A stretch of DNA of 64,000 nucleotides, taken from an uncultured Flavobacteriaceae bacterium. GTDB lineage: Bacteria > Bacteroidota > Bacteroidia > Flavobacteriales > Flavobacteriaceae. Where the stretch lies: positions 62,001-126,000 of the forward strand of contig CANMSA010000005.1 of the NCBI GenBank assembly GCA_947500385.1, written 5' to 3'. The stretch's first letter is position 1, and each line of letters opens with the position of its first letter. This document shows, piece by piece, positions 1 to 16,172 of this stretch. Position numbers and translations under genes: made by a program. The notes below the pieces were generated by a model, which was not told the DNA's origin, searched no databases, and was given only the letters and a program-made list of their open reading frames with translations.

Positions 1-295
1 AAATAGACCGTACCTGCGCAAATACGTGCCCATCCAATACGGTAATAAAACCGGCATCGGCCCAGTGTTCCATTTCGGTGGGTTCGTTCGTAAGCGGATG
101 TAAAAAGGTCAAAACCCACCCAACACGCAGTGGAGCGCCCCCTTTTACATATTCGTTTAATGCTTCAAGACTGCCTGTCATCTTTTGTCCTTCCCTATTC
201 GCCTCATAAATAATATCATATCCGCTTTGGGAAAAAAGGAGACCCGTTATCGAAAGGCAAATAAATAGGCTAAGGATGTTCTTGTGTTTTCTCAT
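1..295 (-). CDS. partial secreted protein of unknown function (3' end outside window)
   Basis: The reading frame is open from an ATG at 295 to the window edge, giving 98 residues with no stop, so the gene continues beyond base 1. The N-terminus (MRKHKNILSLFICLSITG, then LLFSQ) looks like a signal peptide with likely cleavage after FSQ. The mature part contains VGWVLTFLHP and HWADAGFITVLDGHVFAQV, which suggests a compact beta-rich periplasmic domain. I do not recognise the family. It lies downstream of the M1-like lipoprotein gene on the same strand with a 167-base gap, so it may be a separate unit. The start was chosen because the signal peptide begins there directly. Confidence 0.7.
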   Translation of the reverse strand, partial: MRKHKNILSLFICLSITGLLFSQSGYDIIYEANREGQKMTGSLEALNEYVKGGAPLRVGWVLTFLHPLTNEPTEMEHWADAGFITVLDGHVFAQVRSI

Positions 296-462: not shown

Positions 463-3045
463 CTATTGCGCGGCGTTGAATCGATCTTCAAGCGTTTTAA
501 TAGCGGCCAGTGTTGCTGGTTCTTTCCCGAATTTCTGACGAAGCGTTTCAAAAACAATCTTGCCTTCTTTCACTCCCAAGATCGATACCAACTGGGTATT
601 GTAAAAAATATCATTGATGTGCCCCTGCGCCATTGCATCCGTAAATTGTTCAAAAACCAAAGGGTATCCCTTTTCCGCCATTCCAATGGCGACCAAGGTA
701 TGGGTGGCCGCCAATCGATGGTCCCAAATAGGGGTGCCTAAATTCCAATGCGGATTATCGGAATCGGTCAAGGAATTGATCGCCAGTTCATACGCGCGTT
801 CGTCTTCCAGTTCTTTTAGTCCATACAAAGCGCTGATCAGGCTTTGGTTTTTCCAAGAAGGTTTATTGGGTAAGTGGGTCAGGGCCTCGAAGGCGCGGGG
901 ATCACCACTTTTTCCCAAAGCGATGGCCGACATAAAGACCACCCGGTCGCTGTAATCTTTCAATCCGTCGAGATAGAGGGGTACATATTTTTTGCTGCGT
1001 GTTAGGCCCAAAAGATTGATCACCCATGCCTTGAGCCAGGATTGTTCTTTTTCGACCAAGCTTAACACGACTGCTTCCGTATCGGCATCCAAAGGAATCC
1101 CATCCTTCCCTCCTTTTGCAGATAGCAGCTGCGTTAATTGGCTGATGGCCATTAGGCGCATGCGCCAGTAGGGCTCATCGAGGGCCGATTTCCGTAGGGA
1201 GGCGGCAATTTCCGATACCTGCTGCTGCCCCGTGGCCGTATCCGTCGCGATAGGGCCCAACGCCCGTATCATTTCAAGGCGGTGCAGGGCATCGGTACTT
1301 TTTTGTACTTCCCGCAACCGTTCTTCCAACGATTTTTCGAAAGAGGCTTCCTTTATCCAGGCATCCTCAAAATCAAAATTGACCACTTCGGGGAGCGCAT
1401 CGGCAGCAAAGGTGAACGTTTGTTCTTTTTTGGCCTCAAGCTTTACCGCTTTCAGTACCCCATCGATCTCAATAGCCATATGCCCCTTAAAAAAAGGAAT
1501 CTTTTTTCCTTGAACGATCGAATCTACTTGTTGCGTTTGCACTATGGAAAGTCGTAGTTCCTTTTTCTCCCCATCATAGTTTTGGCGTACCTTGAAAATA
1601 GGGTGCCCTACTCCATACACCCATTGGCCAAAAAACCAATCCATCGGTTCCCCATGGATCTCGTTCACCAATTCCACAAAATCGGCTGTGGTAACCAACT
1701 TCCCTCCATAACGGGACACATAATTTTGAATCAACTTTGACCATTGCGCTTCCCCTAGTTCTTTGCGCAGCATGTGTAATACCCTGGCGCCTTTGGCATA
1801 GGGTGCATTGCCATTTACGAAGGCTTCCATGTTTTCGATGCTTTCTGGAACTACAATGGTTTCCAAGCCAGCCTTCCAATCACCCAAATAGGTGGAGAGA
1901 TCAGGGGAAAGTTGATAGGTCAAGAATTCTGTATTTCCATTTTTGTATTGGTTGTACAATCCAGCAAAATACCTACTAAAGCCCTTGCTTAACCAAACAT
2001 CGTTCCAACCAACAGGCTGCAAGTATGCTCCAAACCATTGATAGGCCAAAGCCTCCCCTTCTGTTAGATCCCATCCATACAGAAAATCTTCATGTGTGGT
2101 TTTGTCATCGATCATGTTTTCGGTGATCAGGGAGCTTCCCAAACCGGGTTTCCAACCTCCAAAATCTTGCACGAATATCTGGGAATACCTACCAAAGGGA
2201 TACGTTTGCCCCGTAATTTCCGAGAAAAACCGCATCATATCGGGCAAACGAACTACACTCTCCTTGGTACCGATGTACTCGTCCGGATACCCATAGTTAT
2301 GCAATTGAACCTGCTTGTAGGCCTGCTCATACACCTTGTACTCACCCACTACCAAGGAGGTCAGGTGTGGCGGATGCGCGATTTCCGTTTTCCAATGGAA
2401 GGTAGTCGTCCCATCTTCATGATCCGTTTTGCGCTGTAGCGTTCCATTGCCAAGAGCCATCAAGGGCTGCTCTACCCTTGCCTTTAGCTCGGTAGTTCTT
2501 AGGTCGTTCGGGGCGTTGCTCCCCGGGAACCAATAGCTTCCCAGACTTGGTTCGCTTACCGCCCATAATTGTTTTCTACGTTCTTTTTCGGTAGCGCTGG
2601 GTTCAAAAAATCGGATTCCTTTCCCAAAGCTACCCCAAATGTTTTGCGGGTCGGACTGATTCACCCACTGGGTACAATACGCTATTTTTAGCGTGACCGC
2701 TTCCTGGGAAGCATCGGTTTGATCCAAGCTTACCTTCAATACCTTTTCGTCTTCATAGGCAAACTGCAAATCGGTACCGTTCACCAATGCCACATTTTCG
2801 ATAGCCAGTATGGTAGCATCGAGATACAAGGTATCTGAACCGCTCAAATTCACAAGGGTAATTTCTGTAAAGCCACATGCCTGTTGCAGTTCCCAGTTGA
2901 AGGTTAGATCGATCAATTGATGTTTGATATCGACCGTGTTCTTCGGCCCCTTGCCCTTCAAAGGGGCCTCTTTCTTTTCACAGGATACCAACACGGCACT
3001 TAGTAGTATGGTACAGGCTAGGGTATTGGTAAAGAATCGTTTCAT
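463..3045 (-). CDS. M1-peptidase-like lipoprotein with lost zinc site and C-terminal helical repeats
   Basis: 860 residues. The N-terminus ends in a lipobox (SAVLVSC, Cys about 22), so this is a lipoprotein. Residues about 40-480 follow the M1 aminopeptidase fold: N-terminal beta domain, then QWFG at 336-339, GWNDVWL at 346-352 and YAKGA at 416-420. The catalytic positions are replaced. The HExxH slot (331-335) reads EALAY, the third zinc ligand Glu expected 23 residues after the first His is Lys354, and the GAMEN-like loop reads GGWKP (296-300). The proton-donor Tyr position (Y416) is kept. Residues about 580-860 look like HEAT-type alpha repeats. Family knowledge says such a protein cannot bind zinc in the usual way, so a binding or scaffold role is inferred. 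It is last in a compact operon, 11 bases after the GNAT gene. Confidence 0.85.
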   Translation of the reverse strand: MKRFFTNTLACTILLSAVLVSCEKKEAPLKGKGPKNTVDIKHQLIDLTFNWELQQACGFTEITLVNLSGSDTLYLDATILAIENVALVNGTDLQFAYEDEKVLKVSLDQTDASQEAVTLKIAYCTQWVNQSDPQNIWGSFGKGIRFFEPSATEKERRKQLWAVSEPSLGSYWFPGSNAPNDLRTTELKARVEQPLMALGNGTLQRKTDHEDGTTTFHWKTEIAHPPHLTSLVVGEYKVYEQAYKQVQLHNYGYPDEYIGTKESVVRLPDMMRFFSEITGQTYPFGRYSQIFVQDFGGWKPGLGSSLITENMIDDKTTHEDFLYGWDLTEGEALAYQWFGAYLQPVGWNDVWLSKGFSRYFAGLYNQYKNGNTEFLTYQLSPDLSTYLGDWKAGLETIVVPESIENMEAFVNGNAPYAKGARVLHMLRKELGEAQWSKLIQNYVSRYGGKLVTTADFVELVNEIHGEPMDWFFGQWVYGVGHPIFKVRQNYDGEKKELRLSIVQTQQVDSIVQGKKIPFFKGHMAIEIDGVLKAVKLEAKKEQTFTFAADALPEVVNFDFEDAWIKEASFEKSLEERLREVQKSTDALHRLEMIRALGPIATDTATGQQQVSEIAASLRKSALDEPYWRMRLMAISQLTQLLSAKGGKDGIPLDADTEAVVLSLVEKEQSWLKAWVINLLGLTRSKKYVPLYLDGLKDYSDRVVFMSAIALGKSGDPRAFEALTHLPNKPSWKNQSLISALYGLKELEDERAYELAINSLTDSDNPHWNLGTPIWDHRLAATHTLVAIGMAEKGYPLVFEQFTDAMAQGHINDIFYNTQLVSILGVKEGKIVFETLRQKFGKEPATLAAIKTLEDRFNAAQ

Positions 3046-3056
3046 AAATCTCTGAA

Positions 3057-3512
3057 TTAAAGGGTTTGAAAAAAGCGTTCTTTGCGTTTAGAGGTTGCAC
3101 CCAAACGATGGTAAAATTTAATGGCCCGTTCGTTAAACTCCGGGGTCTGCCATTGCACTGAGGAACAACCCAGGGTACGGGCTTCCCTTGCTATTCTACG
3201 CATCAATTTCTCGCCTATGCCCAAACCCCGCGCACATTCTTTTAGGAAGAGGCAGTCCATGTACAGATAGTAGTCGGCATCCCAGGTAGCGTATTGTTTC
3301 ATGTAGGTGGCATAGCCGATCAATGCGGCATTGCTTTCTACCACCAGGCAATGGACTATTGGGTCGGGAGCGAACAAATCGGCTGTAAATTTGATGGCCT
3401 TCCCCGTTTTGTCATACGGGGCCTTTTCATAGGTCGCATGCAACTCGCAGAGACCTATGAGCGCTTTTACATCGGTTTTTTGGGCGAAACGTATGGTAGG
3501 TATGATCTTCAT
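3057..3512 (-). CDS. GNAT family N-acetyltransferase
   Basis: 151 residues, a single GNAT domain. The acetyl-CoA pyrophosphate-binding motif is RGLGIG at 95-100, preceded by the beta strand LYMDCLFL (83-90). The C-terminal motif AIKFYHRLGA (about 130-139) contains the usual late Tyr. The N-terminal part (IRFAQKTDVKALIGL) is the typical first strand and helix. The substrate cannot be told: GNATs acetylate amines on small molecules, peptides or proteins. It sits 22 bases after the DUF5916 gene and 11 bases before the M1-like gene, so it is co-transcribed with two envelope proteins although it is itself cytosolic (no signal peptide). Confidence 0.9.
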   Translation of the reverse strand: MKIIPTIRFAQKTDVKALIGLCELHATYEKAPYDKTGKAIKFTADLFAPDPIVHCLVVESNAALIGYATYMKQYATWDADYYLYMDCLFLKECARGLGIGEKLMRRIAREARTLGCSSVQWQTPEFNERAIKFYHRLGATSKRKERFFQTL

Positions 3513-3534: not shown

Positions 3535-6168
3535 TTATCTTAAAAAACGATAGGTGGCCTTTAATAGGAATATATGCTGTGGACGGCTGATATTGTCTTG
3601 CAAACCCTCTGTTAAGCTTTGGTTGAAATCCCCGAAACTTGAGAGGTCTTGGCTCCAGACCAGATAGAATTCCGAACCGGGAATATATTCCCAACGCAGT
3701 ACCAGATTCGAACGCCATTGTACAAATGCAAAATCGGGTTGCGAAAAGGCGAAGTCGGTCGTTCCATCCAGATCTTCATCAACCGAATAGCCACCGTCGA
3801 CCAAGCGCAATTGTTCGGTCCGAAACCGTTGAAAACGATCCTCAAAATTGGAGGCCAGGGGGTTTGTTATGTATTTAAAATCCTTGTAACGTCCTCTGGA
3901 AATAAAAGGCTGTCCCCAATATTGGATGCTTAGGTTGGGCTTCAAAATATAATCGATCCGCAAGGGTAGGTTCAAGGTGCGTTGGGAGATGGTCGCGTTG
4001 ATATATCTGGGCGTACCCCTAAAATCCTGGGTACTTACATACTGCAGCCGATCATCATTTTCACTGTACGAGGGAAGCAAGGATACTTGCAAGGCATTGG
4101 TGGGCTGGTAGGTCAATTGCCCGCTCAGTCGAAACGCATCATAAGCGTTTTCACTCCCTTGATTTACGCTGTAGTTGGCCGTTAACCGCAACTTTTTCCT
4201 ACCGTCTGAAACGATCCCCATTCGATAGGAGAAATCGTTGGGCAGTTGCAACCTGGGGCCCCCTCGCAAGGCAAAATTTGAAAACTGTACCGGCTTGAAG
4301 TTCACCCCCCCGTTAATAAACCAATTATTGTTGAGATTCACCCAACCATTGGTCCCCGCTGTAAAGTCGTTTAGATTGCCTCCAAAATCAAAAGCGGCGG
4401 CTTGCACATAGTTGATCAAGAAAGCCCGTATAGATTCTCGTGCCTTCGTAGTGCGGTATTGCCCCCACGCGTACTGCCGGTAGTCATCGGCGCGTAGTTG
4501 AAAACCGATATCGTTCAGCTCCAGTTCGGGAGAATGCCATAGCACCCCGGTCTCAAACCGCCAATTGCCGGCCGCCTTCCCTATTTGCAGGTTGCCTCCC
4601 GAACCGGTCAGGGAGGTTTTTGTGGGATCTACTGTCAAATAAGAAGCATCCTCCCGTTGAAACAAGCGGGTAATGGATTGTTGGGTATTTGAAATTGCCT
4701 GTGAGGAGCCTTGCACATTGCTAAAAATAAAATTCCCTTTTGCATACCATTTTCGATTCTGCCATTGGTGGGTAATATCGATTCCCGCCGTATAGGCCGC
4801 CCGGTGCAAAAAGGAGAGATTCTCAGGCAAATCTCTATTCACGGCAGTTAGTATGCCGCCAATAAAGGTGTTGTTATTGTTAAAATCTTTCTGTACCCTA
4901 CCCACAAAATAGTTGGTCAGGGGCTCCACTGTTTCTTTGCGGTCGGCAGCAGGGCCGCGTATCACTGCCGATTCTTTGGCCGTAACACTTTCCAAAACCC
5001 CGATACTCCAACCGTCTCTCGTTTTTCCACTAAATTTGGCCGCCCCCAAGATAGTGCTCACGTCGGGTACCTCTGCAAATTCGTCGGCTTCCAGGTTGGG
5101 AGTTCCTTGCGGGGCCCTTCCAATCCTACGGGAATAAAACAGGTTGTTGAAACCAAAGGTATTTCCTGAAAAAGAACTAGCATAGCGATAGTCGAAAATA
5201 TTTTTATTCTCAATAAAGAAAGGTCGCTGCTCGGGGAAAAAGATTTGAAACCCATCCAACGCAATGGCGGAAGGATCCGCCTCTACCTGCCCAAAGTCGG
5301 GGTTTACGGTAAAGTCGAGGGTTAAATCGTTGGTGACCCCTATTTTACCATCCAAACCGACATCCAAACGCGAATCGCGGCCATCCCTGAAAGGATTACC
5401 GGGTTCTGCCTCATAGGTATTCAAGGCACTAACAATATAAGGTTGTATCTCAAGCTGTTTTTGCGGTTGCAAATTTTTCAATCCTTTCAACAAGCCAAAA
5501 GTACTGACCCAACCCGCCGCGTTTTGCGGACTTCGTTGCCAAACGGAACGTTCTTCTTTTCGGAAGTAACGTCGGGTAGATTGTATGCCCCAGACCTGAT
5601 CTTTGGCTTTGCCAAAACGTAATTGGGATAGGGGTATTCGAATCTCGGCGGTCCACCCCTGCGAATCTATATTTGTTTTAGCATACCAAATGGGATTCCA
5701 TGTATTGTCCCAATTCGCCCCATTGTTCGTAATGTATTCTTCGCCTTTTACCCCCGAAACCGAAATGGTAAAGGAATATGCCGTGCGTTCATCGCCCAAA
5801 CTGGCGATATTGATCTCTACCCAATCACCATCGAAACCATCGCGCCTCGACAGTCTTTTTACAATTTTGGAAGGCTCTTTGTCATAACATCTAAACGCGA
5901 CGTAGACATTCTTTTGATCATAGAGAATCTTTAGTTTTGATTGTTCGGTCGGGGCGGTATTCTCCTCTGGGCTCCATTCGACATAATCGCCACTCCAATC
6001 GACCAAACTCCACGCGCGATCTTCTAGCAACCCATCTATTTTAGGCGCCGTGAGGGTATCGATGTGGGTCGTGGTATAGGTTTTCTTCGGCAGGGTATCC
6101 TGCGGCATGCCATATTGCATGATCAATATCCCCGTTAGCACCAGCAATGTTTTGATGGGCCTGTTCAT
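3535..6168 (-). CDS. DUF5916 outer-membrane protein with CBM9-like N-terminal domain
   Basis: 877 residues with a signal peptide (MNRPIKTLLVLTGILIMQYG, cleavage near MPQD). Residues about 30-230 resemble a carbohydrate-binding family 9-like beta sandwich (IDGLLEDRAW, VYVAFRCYD, WTAEIRIPLSQLRFG). The rest matches the DUF5916 pattern, with FFPEQRPFFIEN and NLFYSRRIGR followed by many amphipathic strands, and it ends in Phe-Leu-Arg, consistent with an outer-membrane barrel. The ligand is unknown. The ATG overlaps the stop of the NTF2-like gene by four bases (ATGA), indicating translational coupling. A second DUF5916 protein lies at 17254-19425. Confidence 0.88.
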   Translation of the reverse strand: MNRPIKTLLVLTGILIMQYGMPQDTLPKKTYTTTHIDTLTAPKIDGLLEDRAWSLVDWSGDYVEWSPEENTAPTEQSKLKILYDQKNVYVAFRCYDKEPSKIVKRLSRRDGFDGDWVEINIASLGDERTAYSFTISVSGVKGEEYITNNGANWDNTWNPIWYAKTNIDSQGWTAEIRIPLSQLRFGKAKDQVWGIQSTRRYFRKEERSVWQRSPQNAAGWVSTFGLLKGLKNLQPQKQLEIQPYIVSALNTYEAEPGNPFRDGRDSRLDVGLDGKIGVTNDLTLDFTVNPDFGQVEADPSAIALDGFQIFFPEQRPFFIENKNIFDYRYASSFSGNTFGFNNLFYSRRIGRAPQGTPNLEADEFAEVPDVSTILGAAKFSGKTRDGWSIGVLESVTAKESAVIRGPAADRKETVEPLTNYFVGRVQKDFNNNNTFIGGILTAVNRDLPENLSFLHRAAYTAGIDITHQWQNRKWYAKGNFIFSNVQGSSQAISNTQQSITRLFQREDASYLTVDPTKTSLTGSGGNLQIGKAAGNWRFETGVLWHSPELELNDIGFQLRADDYRQYAWGQYRTTKARESIRAFLINYVQAAAFDFGGNLNDFTAGTNGWVNLNNNWFINGGVNFKPVQFSNFALRGGPRLQLPNDFSYRMGIVSDGRKKLRLTANYSVNQGSENAYDAFRLSGQLTYQPTNALQVSLLPSYSENDDRLQYVSTQDFRGTPRYINATISQRTLNLPLRIDYILKPNLSIQYWGQPFISRGRYKDFKYITNPLASNFEDRFQRFRTEQLRLVDGGYSVDEDLDGTTDFAFSQPDFAFVQWRSNLVLRWEYIPGSEFYLVWSQDLSSFGDFNQSLTEGLQDNISRPQHIFLLKATYRFLR

Positions 6169-6527
6169 TGTACTATGTGCACCTTTCGAAAGGCATTCTT
6201 TTCTTTAATGCGGTCTCCTTCGAACTTAAAGAAATCGCACCCCTTTCTAGTTTCATTGTTCGACAGCTGGTAAGACCATTCCCAAAAACCATATTTTTCG
6301 CAAAGTACAATTCCCATAATTTCACTGCTGACCGTTTCATCAAATTGCCACATGCTCTTAATTCCTTCGGCCACCTGCTCTTTTCCCGAATAGGTAGCGC
6401 CGGGTTCCGCTCCTGCAGAAGCCTTATAAACACAATCGTCCGTGAAAAAGGTCAACACCAATCTCAAATCTTGGCTGGCCCAAGCATCGGCAAATTCGAA
6501 CAAGCGTTGTTGCGTCATTACATTCAT
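6165..6527 (-). CDS. NTF2-like (SnoaL-type) small protein
   Basis: 120 residues from the ATG at 6527. A longer frame exists upstream, but this start overlaps the stop of the preceding gene in the coupled form ATGA, and the protein then begins directly with the first helix of the NTF2-like cone fold (QQRLFEFADAWASQDL). LTFFTDDCVYKAS and ATYSGKEQVAEGIK are typical of SnoaL-like domains. The family includes small-molecule isomerases, hydratases and inert binding proteins; no active-site set was recognised. It is coupled to both neighbours by 4-base overlaps. Confidence 0.8.
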   Translation of the reverse strand: MNVMTQQRLFEFADAWASQDLRLVLTFFTDDCVYKASAGAEPGATYSGKEQVAEGIKSMWQFDETVSSEIMGIVLCEKYGFWEWSYQLSNNETRKGCDFFKFEGDRIKEKNAFRKVHIVQ

Positions 6528-6982
6528 AACACATCGTTTAAATAGGCGGTAAAATTTGGATTTTCGACCAGGACATGCCGTACCCAAGCGTTGCGCTCGT
6601 GCGCAAAAACCTCCAATTCCCATACACAGAGCAGCGCATTTGTTTGATAGGGAGATTTTTTGATGACAATCGGATGCTCAAATGCCGCAAAGAGGACTTT
6701 CGTGCGCAACATTTCACCCCCGGTCCACCAGCTAAGCAATATCCAGACCCCTTCGCGTCCTTCATGTACAATGAGAAATGCCTTTTTGTATACCGCTAGG
6801 GTCGATTCGGCCGCCTCAAGCAACAAATCAGGAAGTAATTCCTTGGCTTTTTCTAATATTTCAAGGGAATCGAAACGATTTTTATTACTAATCGTATACA
6901 CTTTTACACTCCATTCCTGTTTCTGAAACAACTCAGAAAAATGGATGGTCCTCGGCTTGTACTTTTCAAATGTGGCGATCAT
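6524..6982 (-). CDS. conserved-looking hypothetical protein, first of the M1-like operon
   Basis: 152 residues, no signal peptide or membrane segment. Two acidic/hydrophobic helical stretches (residues about 40-65) are followed by beta-rich segments (VWILLSWWTGGEM, LLCVWELEVFAHERNAWV). I do not recognise the family. It reads as a genuine gene because its stop overlaps the start of the NTF2-like gene by four bases and its codon use matches its neighbours. Such coupling suggests that it works with the NTF2-like protein, possibly as a partner subunit. Confidence 0.75.
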   Translation of the reverse strand: MIATFEKYKPRTIHFSELFQKQEWSVKVYTISNKNRFDSLEILEKAKELLPDLLLEAAESTLAVYKKAFLIVHEGREGVWILLSWWTGGEMLRTKVLFAAFEHPIVIKKSPYQTNALLCVWELEVFAHERNAWVRHVLVENPNFTAYLNDVL

Positions 6983-7036: not shown

Positions 7037-7567
7037 TTAGAGGTACTTTTCTCGAATCGTATCCATATGCCAAATTTCATGACCTACGATGGTAAAAGCG
7101 GCGGCTCTCGCCGACATATCCCCCCCATTGGCGTTTCCGATGTTTTGGAGATCCGCATCCGTAATACTATCCAAGAAGACAATCGAATTTGTTCGCATCG
7201 CGGTGTATTCCGAAAGCAAGGCGGTACGTGTTTTGTCTTTTGCGTTCGAGGGATCTATATAGATATTCTGATCATAACCGGCCAAGGCAGTCCGATCATT
7301 GCGGGCAATTCGAAAACAGCGATACATAAAAACATGCTCGGTATCGATCAGGTGTTGTAAAATTTCTTTGCAATCCCATTTACCGGGTGCATAGCGATAC
7401 GACAGCCGTTCTTCCGGGATAGAGTCGAAAAATTGGGGAATATGAACCAAGCCTTGCTTAAAACCGTCACGTAGATGTTCGGTTTTCGAAAACTTGTCAA
7501 TATAACGTCCGTAGTAGGGATCAAACTCGTTGGATTTCAAATCTTGTGTTGTCATAAAAAAAATCAT
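7037..7567 (-). CDS. DinB/YfiT-like putative metal-dependent protein
   Basis: 176 residues. Four-helix DinB-like fold with the probable metal triad His72 (ILQHLIDTEH) and His163/His167 (GHEIWH). WDCKEILQHLIDTE, YRCFRIARND and the closing HMDTIREKYL are characteristic. Members include bacillithiol or mycothiol-dependent transferases and stress proteins; the substrate here is unknown. A second in-frame ATG at 7555 (MTTQDLKS) may be the true start, as the first four residues (MIFF) fit poorly. It lies 54 bases upstream of the unknown gene at 6982 and is divergent from the Lrp gene. Confidence 0.87.
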   Translation of the reverse strand: MIFFMTTQDLKSNEFDPYYGRYIDKFSKTEHLRDGFKQGLVHIPQFFDSIPEERLSYRYAPGKWDCKEILQHLIDTEHVFMYRCFRIARNDRTALAGYDQNIYIDPSNAKDKTRTALLSEYTAMRTNSIVFLDSITDADLQNIGNANGGDMSARAAAFTIVGHEIWHMDTIREKYL

Positions 7568-7679: not shown

Positions 7680-8123
7680 ATGAAGATTGATTCGGTTAAT
7701 TGGAAAATTTTAGAAATTCTACAGGAGAATGCACGAACATCGCTAAAAGACCTTGCGAAAGCGGTTGACCTCTCTTCCCCTACCGTGGCAGAGCGCATTC
7801 AAAAAATGGAAGAAAACGATGTTATTGATAGCTATGGCATACGGGTCAATATGCATACGTTGGGATACAAGCTGGGCGTATATATTTCTATTAAAATACG
7901 ATTCGGTCAGGTACAGCGTTTTGAGGAATTTATACAGACCGTTCCTGAAATTTCGGAGTGTCATAAATTGACAGGGCACGATTGTATGTTAATGAAGGGG
8001 CATGTTCGCGACCCGAAACACTTAGAAGATTTAAACATGCGATTATCGGCCTACGGGGAACTAACGACCTCTTTGATCCTAAATTCGATCGTAGATCGGA
8101 AGGTGTACAATACGGCTTTCTAA
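7680..8123 (+). CDS. Lrp/AsnC family transcriptional regulator
   Basis: 147 residues. The N-terminal winged HTH (DSVNWKILEILQENARTSL, then LAKAVDLSSPTVAERIQKM) covers about residues 1-60. The C-terminal ligand-binding RAM domain runs from about 65 to 145, with YISIKIRFG and ECHKLTGHDCMLM. Such proteins form octamers and usually respond to amino acids. The next gene on the same strand is L-serine dehydratase, so control of serine breakdown is plausible, although a terminator-like hairpin and 237 bases separate them. It is divergent from the DinB gene. Confidence 0.93.
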   Translation: MKIDSVNWKILEILQENARTSLKDLAKAVDLSSPTVAERIQKMEENDVIDSYGIRVNMHTLGYKLGVYISIKIRFGQVQRFEEFIQTVPEISECHKLTGHDCMLMKGHVRDPKHLEDLNMRLSAYGELTTSLILNSIVDRKVYNTAF

Positions 8124-12616: not shown

Positions 12617-15600
12617 ACTCGTTTCTTTCGAATGGAGGTTCCATATCAAACAACCTTCCTATATCTTGTTTTCCCTTCTCTTTTTTCTGGGCGGCCTATA
12701 CTTTGGCCTACAAGATGGCGCAATACACCCCGACAATGCCTATAACCTACATCTATTCGTAGGTATGATAAGCCTTGCCGCTGTTTTTCAAATCGTGTTT
12801 CAAACCGCTTATACCTTGTTCAGGGATTTAAATGCGAATGCAACACAATACATACACACCACGGCTGTGGGGAAGGGTCAGTTCCTAATAAGCCGATTCA
12901 TAGGTATCTTCTCAACGGCCACACTTTCTTCTTTGTGCTATGTACTAGGGCTCTTACTTTCGGTTACTATCGATATTTTTTCCATACACCCAGATGGCCC
13001 TATAACACTCTTACGCTTTGTAAGGCCGTGGTTGGTGATCGTAGTTCCGAATATCTTTATCATTTGTAGTATGCTCTTCTTGATTGCCGTGATTAGCAAA
13101 AAAATGCCCGTTGTTTTCATCGTTGGCTTTGTGCTTTTCGCATCTTTTTGGATACATAATGGGTACATAGGGTCGCCCATTGGAGGAGGGCGCTTGGTCG
13201 TACCCCAGGAAGCGATCCACACCGCGGCGCTTTCGGATATGTTCGGTCTTTGCGCCTCCCATGCCCAAACACAATTTTGGACGCCATTGCAAAAAAGCTC
13301 ACAGCTTCTTTCCTTAAACGGACTGCTTCTTTTCAACAGATTGCTATGGATAGGTACTGCCTTCGTATGTCTTCTTGTTTCCTATGTATGTTTTTCATTC
13401 CGCGTAACAACACGAAAAGTAAATGGTATGAGATTGCGCATACGTTTCCAAACAAAACGGGGCGGGAAGAAAGAAAAAAAGCTTCCGAAACTATCCTACT
13501 TCCCCATATTTACCGAAAAGAAATCATTCCTTGCCAAGGTCGGTGAGTTTGTCACCTTGGTAAAGACAGACTTTACAACGACCTTGTTTAGCAGAACATT
13601 CCTTTTGCTGGCACTGGGTTGGACCGTTATCCTATTTATGGCAATTAGTCACAATCTAAACGGGCAAGAAGTATATGGGAACACCCTGCCCACCACGGGT
13701 CTCATCGTTGGCCTTATCTTGGAACCCCTCTCCTATCTCGGGTTATTCTTAATGATTTTTTACGCCGGAGAGCTCGTTTGGAATTCAAGAAAGCATCGAT
13801 TTCATGAAATTCTTGATAGTACCCCGGCAAAAAACGAATTGCTTTTAGGAGCGAAGTATACCGCACTTTTTCTGATACCGATAACCCTTATAGTCTTGGC
13901 AATCCTAATCGGGTTGGCATTTCAATTGCTATCGGGATACACCGCTATCGACTTCTCACTTTACTTGAGTATTTTCTATTATGGTGGTACTTCCTTGCTG
14001 ATCTACGGCATCCTTTCTATATGTATTCAGCAGCTATCGACCCATAAATATTTGGGCATGCTAACAAGTCTCATTATAATCTACGGAGCCGCCAATGTAT
14101 TGCCGCTTTTCGGTATAGACCATCCCCTTGGGCAACTTTTTAACCTTCCAAAAATAGGAGAAGGGTATTCTTCCTTTATCGGTTTTGGATCACAAGGAGC
14201 GCTATTCAATCGGTTTAGTTTGCTCTGGATCACCGTAGCTTTGCTTGTAGCCTTCATTAGTTTTAAGGTCTTTAAACGCAATAGTGAATTGGTACTGAAA
14301 GAACAATTACAGAAGTTGTTGCAATTATGGAGTCCTATCCAACGGATTTTAGTGGGCATTTTTGTACTGGTCATCTGCATTTCTGCGGGCCTTATCGAAC
14401 ATGATCTTCGAAAAGACACGACATTAACTGGTCAAAACGAACTTCTAAATTTCAGGGAACTGTATGAAAAACGGTATAAGCCATTGTCCAAACTTCACAT
14501 GCCCGCAATTACTGATATTAAAACCAAGGTGCAGTTATTCCCAAAAAGCAGGTCATACCAGGTCATAGGGGATTACACCTTCAAAAACATTGCTACAAAG
14601 CCTATTGACACTATTGTTCTTACGGCACGTCATAAGATAGATTCGCTGGCAATACAGGGAGCGCGAACACTGCGGCGGGATCTTGCCTCCATAGATGCTC
14701 GCATCATGGTACTAACACCTCCCATGCAACCGGGGGAAAGTAGACAGATGCACTTTAAAACCATTAAAAAAGTAGGTGTCTTCGAAACACAAAGAGATAT
14801 ATTACAAAATGGAACCTATCTTCGAAACAGCACCTTCGAACCTCGTTTTGGGTATCAAAAAGCCTTGGAAATTACCACTCTATCGGAACGAAAAAAACGG
14901 GGGTTGCCAGAGGATCGAGAATCGGAGTTTATCGAAAATGACTTACGGACACATCCAAAGCAAGCGTTTGAAACCTGGGTAACAACGGACAAAGGACAAA
15001 TCGCCATCGCCCCGGGAAAATTGCTCGATACCTTACAAATAGGCAATCGCATGCAATACCATTACAAATCGACCCAAAAAACCGACAACAACCTTTCCTA
15101 CTTTTCAGCTTCCTATAAGAAACAAACGGTGCACTTTAAAGGCATAACGATCGAAGCCTATTTTCTTCCCGAACATAACGCCAATATTACGGCCCTTCTA
15201 AAAGCCGCGGTCAAGACCTTGGAGTATGGTACCGCCCATTTTGGCGATTACCCATTGGATCATCTAAGGATTGCGGAAGTACCCTCGCATTGGAAATTTG
15301 GAGGTCATGCCCTACCCGGAACCATCGCGCTTCAAGAACGCTTTTTTACCCAAGACGATGAAGATCCGCTGAAAGGAATCAATCAACTTACCCGGGTGGT
15401 TATTCATGAGATAGGACATCAATGGTTCGGTCATCAAATGGCCCCTGCTCCCGGTCCGGGAGGGAACATGCTCAATGAAACAATGGCAAACTATGTGGAA
15501 GCACAGGTGTTGGAAGGTTTGTACGGGAAAACTATGGTACGACAGTTGGCCAATTTCAATCGCCGAAGGTATTTTGCCTTCCGCTCTTCATCCGAAACGG

Positions 15601-16172
15601 AAGAGCCCACCCTTCATAAGGTCGCCAATGAAACCTATGTAGCCTATAGAAAGGGATTTCTGGCCATGCAGTCCCTAAAGGAACTTATAGGAGAAAAACG
15701 ATTGAACCAATGTTTAAAAATGCTCATCGAAAACCACCATGTAGAACAGTCGGCAAGCGCTGAAGATTTTCTGAACCTCCTGAAAGAAAATGCCAGTCAA
15801 CATGAAATTGCCTTAATTTCCGACTGGTTCGAAAACAGGTATCAGTATGCCATTAAAGGAGCGCTCCTCTCGATCAACAACCACGCACAAACCCATGCGA
15901 TAGCCATTAAGGTAACGGCCAATCGTTTCCAAACGAACCCAGCGGGAATAGAACAAGAAGTTCCGATCAATGAGTCAATAACTGTCGGGTTCTATCAAAA
16001 AGATCCTGCCGATCCAACGGCGCGGCCTTATTTTAAAAAAATAAGGTTATCCAAACGGGTACAAGAAATCACATTTCAATTGAAAACACTGCCCAACTAT
16101 GTTGTATTGGACCCTATGATTACTCGTTTGGACAAAGACATACAAGACAATCTAATTGTCATTGAGCACTAA
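12606..16172 (+). CDS. ABC permease fused to a periplasmic M1 family aminopeptidase
   Basis: 1188 residues. Residues about 1-600 hold two ABC-2-like membrane halves with about twelve hydrophobic segments and a charged linker near 280-310. Residues about 620-1188 form an M1 peptidase. HEIGH at 934-938 is followed by Glu958 in NETMANYVE (third zinc ligand), and GGHALPG stands in the exopeptidase-loop position. The catalytic set is complete, in contrast to the M1-like lipoprotein at 463-3045. The peptidase is expected on the periplasmic side and the ATPase at 11723 should power the permease. This fusion type is known in Bacteroidota, but its substrate is not, as far as I know. Roles in peptide export with trimming, or in defence against peptides, are inference. 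Confidence 0.92.
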   Translation: MLPKLVSFEWRFHIKQPSYILFSLLFFLGGLYFGLQDGAIHPDNAYNLHLFVGMISLAAVFQIVFQTAYTLFRDLNANATQYIHTTAVGKGQFLISRFIGIFSTATLSSLCYVLGLLLSVTIDIFSIHPDGPITLLRFVRPWLVIVVPNIFIICSMLFLIAVISKKMPVVFIVGFVLFASFWIHNGYIGSPIGGGRLVVPQEAIHTAALSDMFGLCASHAQTQFWTPLQKSSQLLSLNGLLLFNRLLWIGTAFVCLLVSYVCFSFRVTTRKVNGMRLRIRFQTKRGGKKEKKLPKLSYFPIFTEKKSFLAKVGEFVTLVKTDFTTTLFSRTFLLLALGWTVILFMAISHNLNGQEVYGNTLPTTGLIVGLILEPLSYLGLFLMIFYAGELVWNSRKHRFHEILDSTPAKNELLLGAKYTALFLIPITLIVLAILIGLAFQLLSGYTAIDFSLYLSIFYYGGTSLLIYGILSICIQQLSTHKYLGMLTSLIIIYGAANVLPLFGIDHPLGQLFNLPKIGEGYSSFIGFGSQGALFNRFSLLWITVALLVAFISFKVFKRNSELVLKEQLQKLLQLWSPIQRILVGIFVLVICISAGLIEHDLRKDTTLTGQNELLNFRELYEKRYKPLSKLHMPAITDIKTKVQLFPKSRSYQVIGDYTFKNIATKPIDTIVLTARHKIDSLAIQGARTLRRDLASIDARIMVLTPPMQPGESRQMHFKTIKKVGVFETQRDILQNGTYLRNSTFEPRFGYQKALEITTLSERKKRGLPEDRESEFIENDLRTHPKQAFETWVTTDKGQIAIAPGKLLDTLQIGNRMQYHYKSTQKTDNNLSYFSASYKKQTVHFKGITIEAYFLPEHNANITALLKAAVKTLEYGTAHFGDYPLDHLRIAEVPSHWKFGGHALPGTIALQERFFTQDDEDPLKGINQLTRVVIHEIGHQWFGHQMAPAPGPGGNMLNETMANYVEAQVLEGLYGKTMVRQLANFNRRRYFAFRSSSETEEPTLHKVANETYVAYRKGFLAMQSLKELIGEKRLNQCLKMLIENHHVEQSASAEDFLNLLKENASQHEIALISDWFENRYQYAIKGALLSINNHAQTHAIAIKVTANRFQTNPAGIEQEVPINESITVGFYQKDPADPTARPYFKKIRLSKRVQEITFQLKTLPNYVVLDPMITRLDKDIQDNLIVIEH

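Follow-up and report, generated by a model that had tools for sequence, protein, structure and literature searches.

An M1 aminopeptidase homologue without catalytic residues, and its family of probable binding proteins in Bacteroidota and Acidobacteriota

The gene at 463-3045 of the window (the whole stretch of DNA analysed, 64,000 nucleotides from an uncultured Flavobacteriaceae bacterium) encodes a homologue of M1 aminopeptidases in which each of the three zinc ligands has been replaced, as have the Glu acting as general base and the Glu of the GAMEN motif. It belongs to one maintained family, in every row of which the first His, the general base, the third ligand and the GAMEN Glu are replaced. 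Catalytic loss shared by orthologues is combined here with purifying selection, and the two together support the pseudoenzyme proposed in the initial annotation. The window protein is probably a binding protein and not a decaying enzyme.

Architecture and catalytic site of the window protein

The gene and its relevant parts are located in the window as follows.

463-3045, minus strand: probably exported lipoprotein of 860 aa, M1-aminopeptidase homologue without catalytic residues
2980-2991, minus strand: lipobox, LVS followed by Cys22, recognized by eye and with a loose pattern
2551-2553, minus strand: Glu165 (E 14, D 1 of 15 clade rows; aligned with a Glu that 15 of the 16 close active relatives share)
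2146-2160, minus strand: GGWKP, residues 296-300, in place of GAMEN (Glu absent in 15/15 clade rows)
2044-2118, minus strand: NMIDDKTTHEDFLYGWDLTEGEALA, residues 310-334, the most conserved 25-residue stretch of the inactive clade, partly clade-specific
2041-2055, minus strand: EALAY, residues 331-335, in place of HExxH
1984-1986, minus strand: Lys354, where active enzymes have the Glu that is their third zinc ligand (K in 8, R in 6 and N in 1 of the 15 clade rows)
1798-1800, minus strand: Tyr416, corresponding to the transition-state tyrosine (Y in 12 and K in 3 of the 15 clade rows)
706-1065, minus strand: HEAT repeats, residues 661-780, with stronger conservation within the inactive clade than among 16 active relatives

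The frame starts with ATG and runs through 860 codons without a single internal stop, so the intact frame reported earlier was borne out, on the minus strand; a plus-strand translation of these positions is interrupted by many stops. Pfam recognizes Peptidase_M1_N at residues 45-225, Peptidase_M1 (PF01433) at 269-475 with 68.6 bits, above the curated cut-off of 27.7, and HEAT_2 at 661-730, the last of which corresponds to the helical repeats noticed initially. NCBIfam gave sub-threshold matches only, the best of them to PepN models. The lipobox of the initial annotation is likewise in place, and the window protein is probably exported. A point against an exported binding role is that the lipobox pattern occurs in 6/6 Flavobacteriaceae rows of the clade but in 1/9 of its other rows.

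In a sequence search of the PDB, the best E-values belonged to designed HEAT-repeat proteins, matched through the HEAT part, and M1 aminopeptidases came next. We also modelled the protein with AlphaFold2 from 9 sequences and without templates. Mean pLDDT of the model is 79.4, reaching 85-90 over the blocks covering residues 331-360 and falling below 50 in the loops 296-301 and 310-317. The top Foldseek match was PepN (5dll; E = 1.1e-29), and VIA-align superimposed 765 residues on the same structure with a Z-score of 33.7 and an rmsd of 6.1. Comparison with M1 structures, suggested at the outset as a check, thus matched the M1 fold over the whole chain of the predicted model. A second PepN structure, 2hpo, gave a Z-score of 27.8. 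Despite this likeness of predicted fold, the window protein and bacterial PepN are only ~16-17% identical, and the zinc site has been lost in the former. Sequence and predicted fold together identify the window protein as an M1 homologue, a member of the family by descent.

Of the hallmarks of active M1 enzymes, HExxH, the third-ligand Glu 23 residues further on and GAMEN are absent from the window protein, which retains none of the four H-E-H-E positions; the transition-state Tyr is present. The individual replacements had been read correctly from the translation: EALAY stands at the HExxH site, Lys354 has the spacing of the third ligand (331+23), GGWKP occupies the GAMEN-like loop and Tyr416 follows the first ligand position by 85 residues (331+85). 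The surrounding motifs said to be retained were found as well, QWFG at 336-339 and GWNDVWL at 346-352. Across 15 clade rows, position 331 is E in 12, N in 2 and Q in 1, and position 332 is A in 13 and T in 2, while position 335 is free to vary (H 5, S 3, Y 2, R 2, F, A and N). Invariance is accordingly incomplete at Tyr416 (12/15), Glu331 (12/15) and Lys/Arg354 (14/15). Wherever a clade row has Glu331, residue 354 is K or R, a pattern compatible with an ion pair at the empty zinc position; two rows with Lys354 and Asn331 and one row with Gln331 and Asn354 speak against such a pair. Glu165 aligns with a Glu that presumably holds the N-terminus of the peptide in active enzymes.

From these replacements we infer that the window protein would hold no catalytic zinc and would not act as an aminopeptidase. 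That it is still an active zinc enzyme with substitute ligands is very improbable: QW, WL and Tyr416 are indeed retained in the window protein and the second His is kept in 5 of the 16 inactive loci described below, but the first ligand, the third ligand and the general base are replaced in all 16, and the GAMEN Glu is lost in every one of the 15 rows.

A single loss shared by two phyla

A scan of genome contigs retrieved 11 relatives. Eight of them (L009-L016), the closest, come from Flavobacteriaceae and Vicinamibacteria (Acidobacteriota) and share 41-54% identity with the window protein; in each of the eight, E-A-L-A occupies the HExxH site and the third ligand is replaced by K or R. Profile searches of 396 Acidobacteriota genomes (the phylum of L016) and 395 Bacteroidota genomes (the phylum of the window), with motifs inspected at 30 loci in each, added the inactive loci L051, L052 and L081-L085. 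The motif table of these loci was confined to rows scoring above 60 bits against the clade profile, and L003, L005, L007, L008 and L019 are not in it. A tabulation of 105 rows comprises 99 distinct sequences, distinct meaning different in the last 500 residues. The four residues H, E, H and E are present in 85 rows (83 distinct). In 20 rows, corresponding to 16 distinct loci from Bacteroidota and Acidobacteriota with the window gene among them, three residues have been lost jointly, namely the first His, the general base and the Glu of the third ligand. None of the 99 distinct sequences inspected has lost just one or two of these three positions; intermediates or further inactive copies may exist among the weaker, uninspected matches. 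In another set of matches, 29 of the 36 non-window matches were inspected and all 29 have HExxH.

The replacements are not due to chance, as E and A at the first two HExxH positions and K or R at the third ligand position recur in all eight close homologues and 16 distinct loci show the loss. The initial annotation had asked whether orthologues share the replacements and had named orthologues keeping HExxH as the observation that would speak for recent decay; the same core loss was found in 16/16 distinct loci, and the full HExxH in none of them (0/16).

To place the loss, we built a tree of 68 proteins, omitting L013, which is nearly identical to L011. The trees are quick, midpoint-rooted ones with SH-aLRT support and no bootstrap. 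The 15 inactive rows form one clade (SH-aLRT 100), and the same value was obtained once the alignment columns of GAMEN, HExxH, the third ligand and Tyr had been taken out. On the tree with all columns, nine Acidobacteriota homologues, L053-L061, are its sister group; they resemble the clade in having frames of 869-892 aa with M1 and HEAT parts that align, but differ in that HELAH, NESF and GGGMEN are intact. More intact-motif proteins lie outside. Because both the sisters and the proteins further out keep the motifs, the loss is a derived state. It looks like a single event. Multiple independent losses are not favoured, one change being sufficient on both trees. On the tree without motif columns, the phylum label also needs one change within the clade.

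Four pairs of inactive genes gave dN/dS values of 0.25 (L009/L012), 0.13 (L081/L082), 0.15 (L084/L085) and 0.18 (L015/L016); L011 and L013 were too alike for an estimate. Active control pairs gave 0.03 (with dS of 2.5, near saturation), 0.14 and 0.11, and a fourth pair was saturated. The frames used span from stop to stop, so that some upstream non-coding letters are included in these values. The range of 0.13-0.25 in four pairs indicates purifying selection, and the inactive clade is constrained, perhaps a little less than the active controls. A decaying gene or a sequencing error is therefore scarcely credible. The distribution is patchy, the gene being present in 1 of 10 genomes of the host genus, namely the window genome, but the frames of the clade remain open over ~850-950 aa, the replacements are common to two phyla, and the dN/dS values are low. 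The match in L085 was listed with one internal stop; the L085 gene itself is an open frame of 845 aa. Recent decay was rejected on the grounds that the loss is common to all 16 distinct clade loci and that dN/dS lies in the above range.

The window genome contains 12 matches to M1 domains, and HExxH is found in 10 of them, the exceptions being the window gene and the weakest match, which scores below the Pfam cut-off. A further M1 domain in the window itself (15201-15818, plus strand; 1195-aa frame) keeps HEIGH together with the NET third-ligand motif. Elsewhere in the genome, a 956-aa frame (L147, at G000:C15:72458-72883, plus strand) encodes a second M1-like protein without HExxH, just below the Pfam cut-off and thus possibly a further M1 homologue that is inactive.

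Redistribution of conservation and possible binding roles

Conservation within the inactive clade is distributed differently from that in its active relatives. Over the whole chain, pairwise identity is 0.45 in the clade and 0.52 in 16 close active relatives. The proportionally deepest drop is at residues 331-360, the old zinc helix (0.55 versus 0.85), whereas the HEAT segment 661-780 is better conserved in the clade (0.54 versus 0.43), as is, to a smaller extent, 781-860 (0.39 versus 0.34). Against the nine sisters alone, identity at 661-780 is slightly higher (0.54 versus 0.51), that at 781-860 is lower (0.39 versus 0.51) and the rest of the clade chain is far lower, the shift of 661-780 being in this comparison one relative to the remaining chain. 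Measured relative to residues 37-570, the shift of 661-780 has Mann-Whitney p-values of 5e-11 with all 16 relatives, 1e-15 with the nine sisters and 1e-5 with the other seven, computed per alignment column with columns treated as independent. This is the pattern expected of a function that has moved from catalysis to binding.

Within the clade, the stretch 310-334 ranks first in conservation and 727-751 of the HEAT domain second. N310, D313, H318, W325, W670, Y691, W767, W774 and D775 are among the residues that are invariant in the clade but vary in the relatives; most of the stretch 765-776 is a gap in active relatives. Conservation thus distributed favours a role in binding that involves both the HEAT domain and the rim of the former cleft. 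The role of peptide-binding sensor or scaffold put forward initially may be of this kind.

The reading we put first, with about an even chance of being right, is that of an exported pseudopeptidase that binds a ligand between the old cleft and the HEAT domain. A small or peptide ligand would occupy the chamber that separates the former active-site face (310-334) from the HEAT-repeat domain, its free amino group perhaps held by Glu165, and the empty zinc position would be filled by the ion pair of Glu331 and Lys/Arg354.

A lesser contender, possible though we regard it as unlikely, is a pure scaffold in which the old cleft is dead space, the M1 part is a rigid body and the HEAT repeats bind a protein partner such as an S41 peptidase or a DUF5916 protein. 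Among the segments compared, the clade indeed exceeds the 16 active relatives only at 661-780 and 781-860. The second of these falls below the nine sisters alone. Against a pure scaffold, the top-conserved stretch adjoins the old active site, and Glu165 is retained in 14/15 rows.

The conserved polar residues near the old site could alternatively form a new active or metal site (e.g. His318, Asp313, Asp314, Asp320 and Glu331) serving another hydrolase or a metal-related role, which we consider improbable. Asp313, Asp314, His318 and Asp320, which might also supply the alternative zinc ligands named initially as a second refuting observation, are identical across the clade table, and N310, D313, H318 and D320 are each found in 15/15 clade rows. 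Yet active relatives, whose zinc is bound elsewhere, also keep D320 (16/16) and D314 (at least 14/16), Glu331 varies to Q and N, and these residues lie in or beside a poorly modelled loop (pLDDT <50 at 310-317).

Gene neighbourhood and known non-catalytic relatives

Upstream of the M1 gene in the window lie the following genes.

3057-3512, minus strand: GNAT acetyltransferase, separated from the M1 gene by 12 bp; found in 6/7 Flavobacteriaceae loci
3535-6168, minus strand: CBM9-like and DUF5916 protein, 877 aa; at most 1.6 kb from the M1 gene in 7/7 Flavobacteriaceae loci
6165-6623, minus strand: SnoaL-like protein, with relatives in 7/7 Flavobacteriaceae loci
6524-6982, minus strand: 152-aa protein without Pfam or NCBIfam match; its family occurs in 11/16 inactive-M1 loci
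7037-7567, minus strand: DinB_2-family protein; its family occurs in 13/16 inactive-M1 loci
7680-8123, plus strand: Lrp/AsnC-family regulator, divergent from the cassette

Two of these neighbours recur beyond Flavobacteriaceae. The DinB_2 gene accompanies 13 of 16 inactive loci versus 0 of 6 active sister loci (Fisher p = 0.001, kinship ignored), and the ~150-aa family 11 of 16 versus 0 of 6 (Fisher p = 0.012, kinship ignored); the 16 include non-independent loci, with L011 and L013 nearly identical and L009 and L012 95% alike. The six active sister loci have other neighbours, and in five of them these are genes grouping with methionine synthase, DUF937 and NHL-repeat genes. The DinB_2 gene is on the strand of the M1 gene in 12 of the 16 inactive loci. 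In Flavobacteriaceae, it and the ~150-aa gene are 3-6 kb from the M1 gene with other genes between; in L113, the DinB and M1 genes share a few bases of overlap, and L112 and L116 have neither neighbour. Three His residues of the DinB_2 protein (His72, His163 and His167) are invariant in 12 aligned relatives.

The ~150-aa family has an invariant WW pair, CVWE and ER in 10 aligned members. Its representative matched no solved structure by sequence with an E-value better than 1.1 and no PHROGs family better than 0.24, and its AlphaFold2 model (pLDDT 73.6) gave no Foldseek match at E <= 0.001, which does not imply a new fold. Ten of 395 Bacteroidota genomes contain the family, as do 5 of 376 genomes of Acidobacteriota. 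Within the 395 Bacteroidota genomes, the inactive M1 protein was found in 6 (from the loci inspected), the ~150-aa family in 10 and both in 4 (Fisher p = 3e-6, kinship ignored), while among the three genomes of the 396-genome Acidobacteriota sample in which inactive M1 was found at the inspected loci (G407, G459 and G471), only G471 has the family. Strict co-occurrence is refuted, since just 4 of the 10 Bacteroidota carriers have both. Downstream of the M1 gene, a 178-aa protein without notable Pfam or NCBIfam match (L122:6760-7296, minus strand, reaching window positions 1-295) has relatives in six loci including that of the window, in some of them in multiple copies.

The remaining neighbours depend on lineage. 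Besides the genes listed above, the seven Flavobacteriaceae loci have an S41 peptidase gene in five cases and a divergent Lrp regulator in six. Five other Bacteroidota loci have a DJ-1/PfpI gene close by, AraC-fused in some, and the two Vicinamibacteria loci have nearby a gene that groups with a GntR-aminotransferase (MocR-type) gene. Proximity to DUF5916 genes in all seven Flavobacteriaceae loci and to S41 genes in most of them is what a scaffold for one of these proteins might show, but no such clustering was found at the nine loci outside Flavobacteriaceae. A literature search found no paper linking DUF5916 with flavobacteria.

The cassette also exists without the M1 gene. In L139 (6075-12876), the order is divergent Lrp, DinB, DUF1272, ~150-aa family, DUF5916, GNAT and S41, with S41 directly after GNAT, and parts of the cassette without an M1 gene are found in L140 and L141. 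The M1 protein is thus an optional member of a reshuffled cassette. Lrp, MocR and DJ-1/AraC regulators usually respond to amines and amino acids, and the kinds of regulator nearby therefore hint at an amino compound or a peptide as the ligand. If so, the neighbours (DinB-family, ~150-aa family and GNAT proteins, with Lrp, DJ-1/AraC or MocR-type regulators depending on lineage) would handle the same signal, and the M1 protein would be an accessory binding or scavenging module of this response cassette, with an amino compound or peptide as the substance that it senses or takes up on behalf of the cassette. The M1-free cassettes, the two loci with neither neighbour and the 3-6 kb spacing in Flavobacteriaceae count against this link.

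Non-catalytic M1 proteins are known from eukaryotes. TAF2 of TFIID (PDB 7edx and 30ff) was among both the sequence and the structure matches of the window protein. TAF2 uses the M1 fold without catalysis and is not known to have a zinc site; unlike the window protein, it is a eukaryotic nuclear protein. TAF150 proteins are described as containing an aminopeptidase domain (PMC1199594). According to a review, yeast Tma108 is an M1 homologue thought to bind the N-terminus of nascent chains and retains all active-site residues but one (PMC11266112). As described there, it differs from the window protein in being a yeast, ribosome-linked protein with a near-complete active site. By analogy, the window protein may work like such non-catalytic M1 proteins. 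On the tree, the nearest relatives of the clade are bacterial intact-motif homologues.

Pseudoenzymes in general are well known. The M1 examples that we met are eukaryotic, namely Tma108 (PMC11266112) and TAF2. No paper on a bacterial M1 pseudopeptidase was found among the matches listed in searches of open-access literature, which for one query were the best 12 of 97. As a tentative wider proposal, which we hold to be possible rather than likely, Bacteroidota and Acidobacteriota would share a family of bacterial M1 pseudopeptidases in which a Glu-Lys/Arg ion pair has taken the place of zinc, the HEAT lid has become the main newly selected surface, and a former exopeptidase now serves as an extracytoplasmic receptor or scavenger linked with a response cassette of DinB, unannotated-family and GNAT genes that is reshuffled and possibly mobile. 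Loss of the zinc site in bacteria, next to a sister clade in which it is intact, would provide a before-and-after pair for the passage from zinc exopeptidase to binder, and the recurrent DinB and ~150-aa neighbours offer a testable genetic setting for it.
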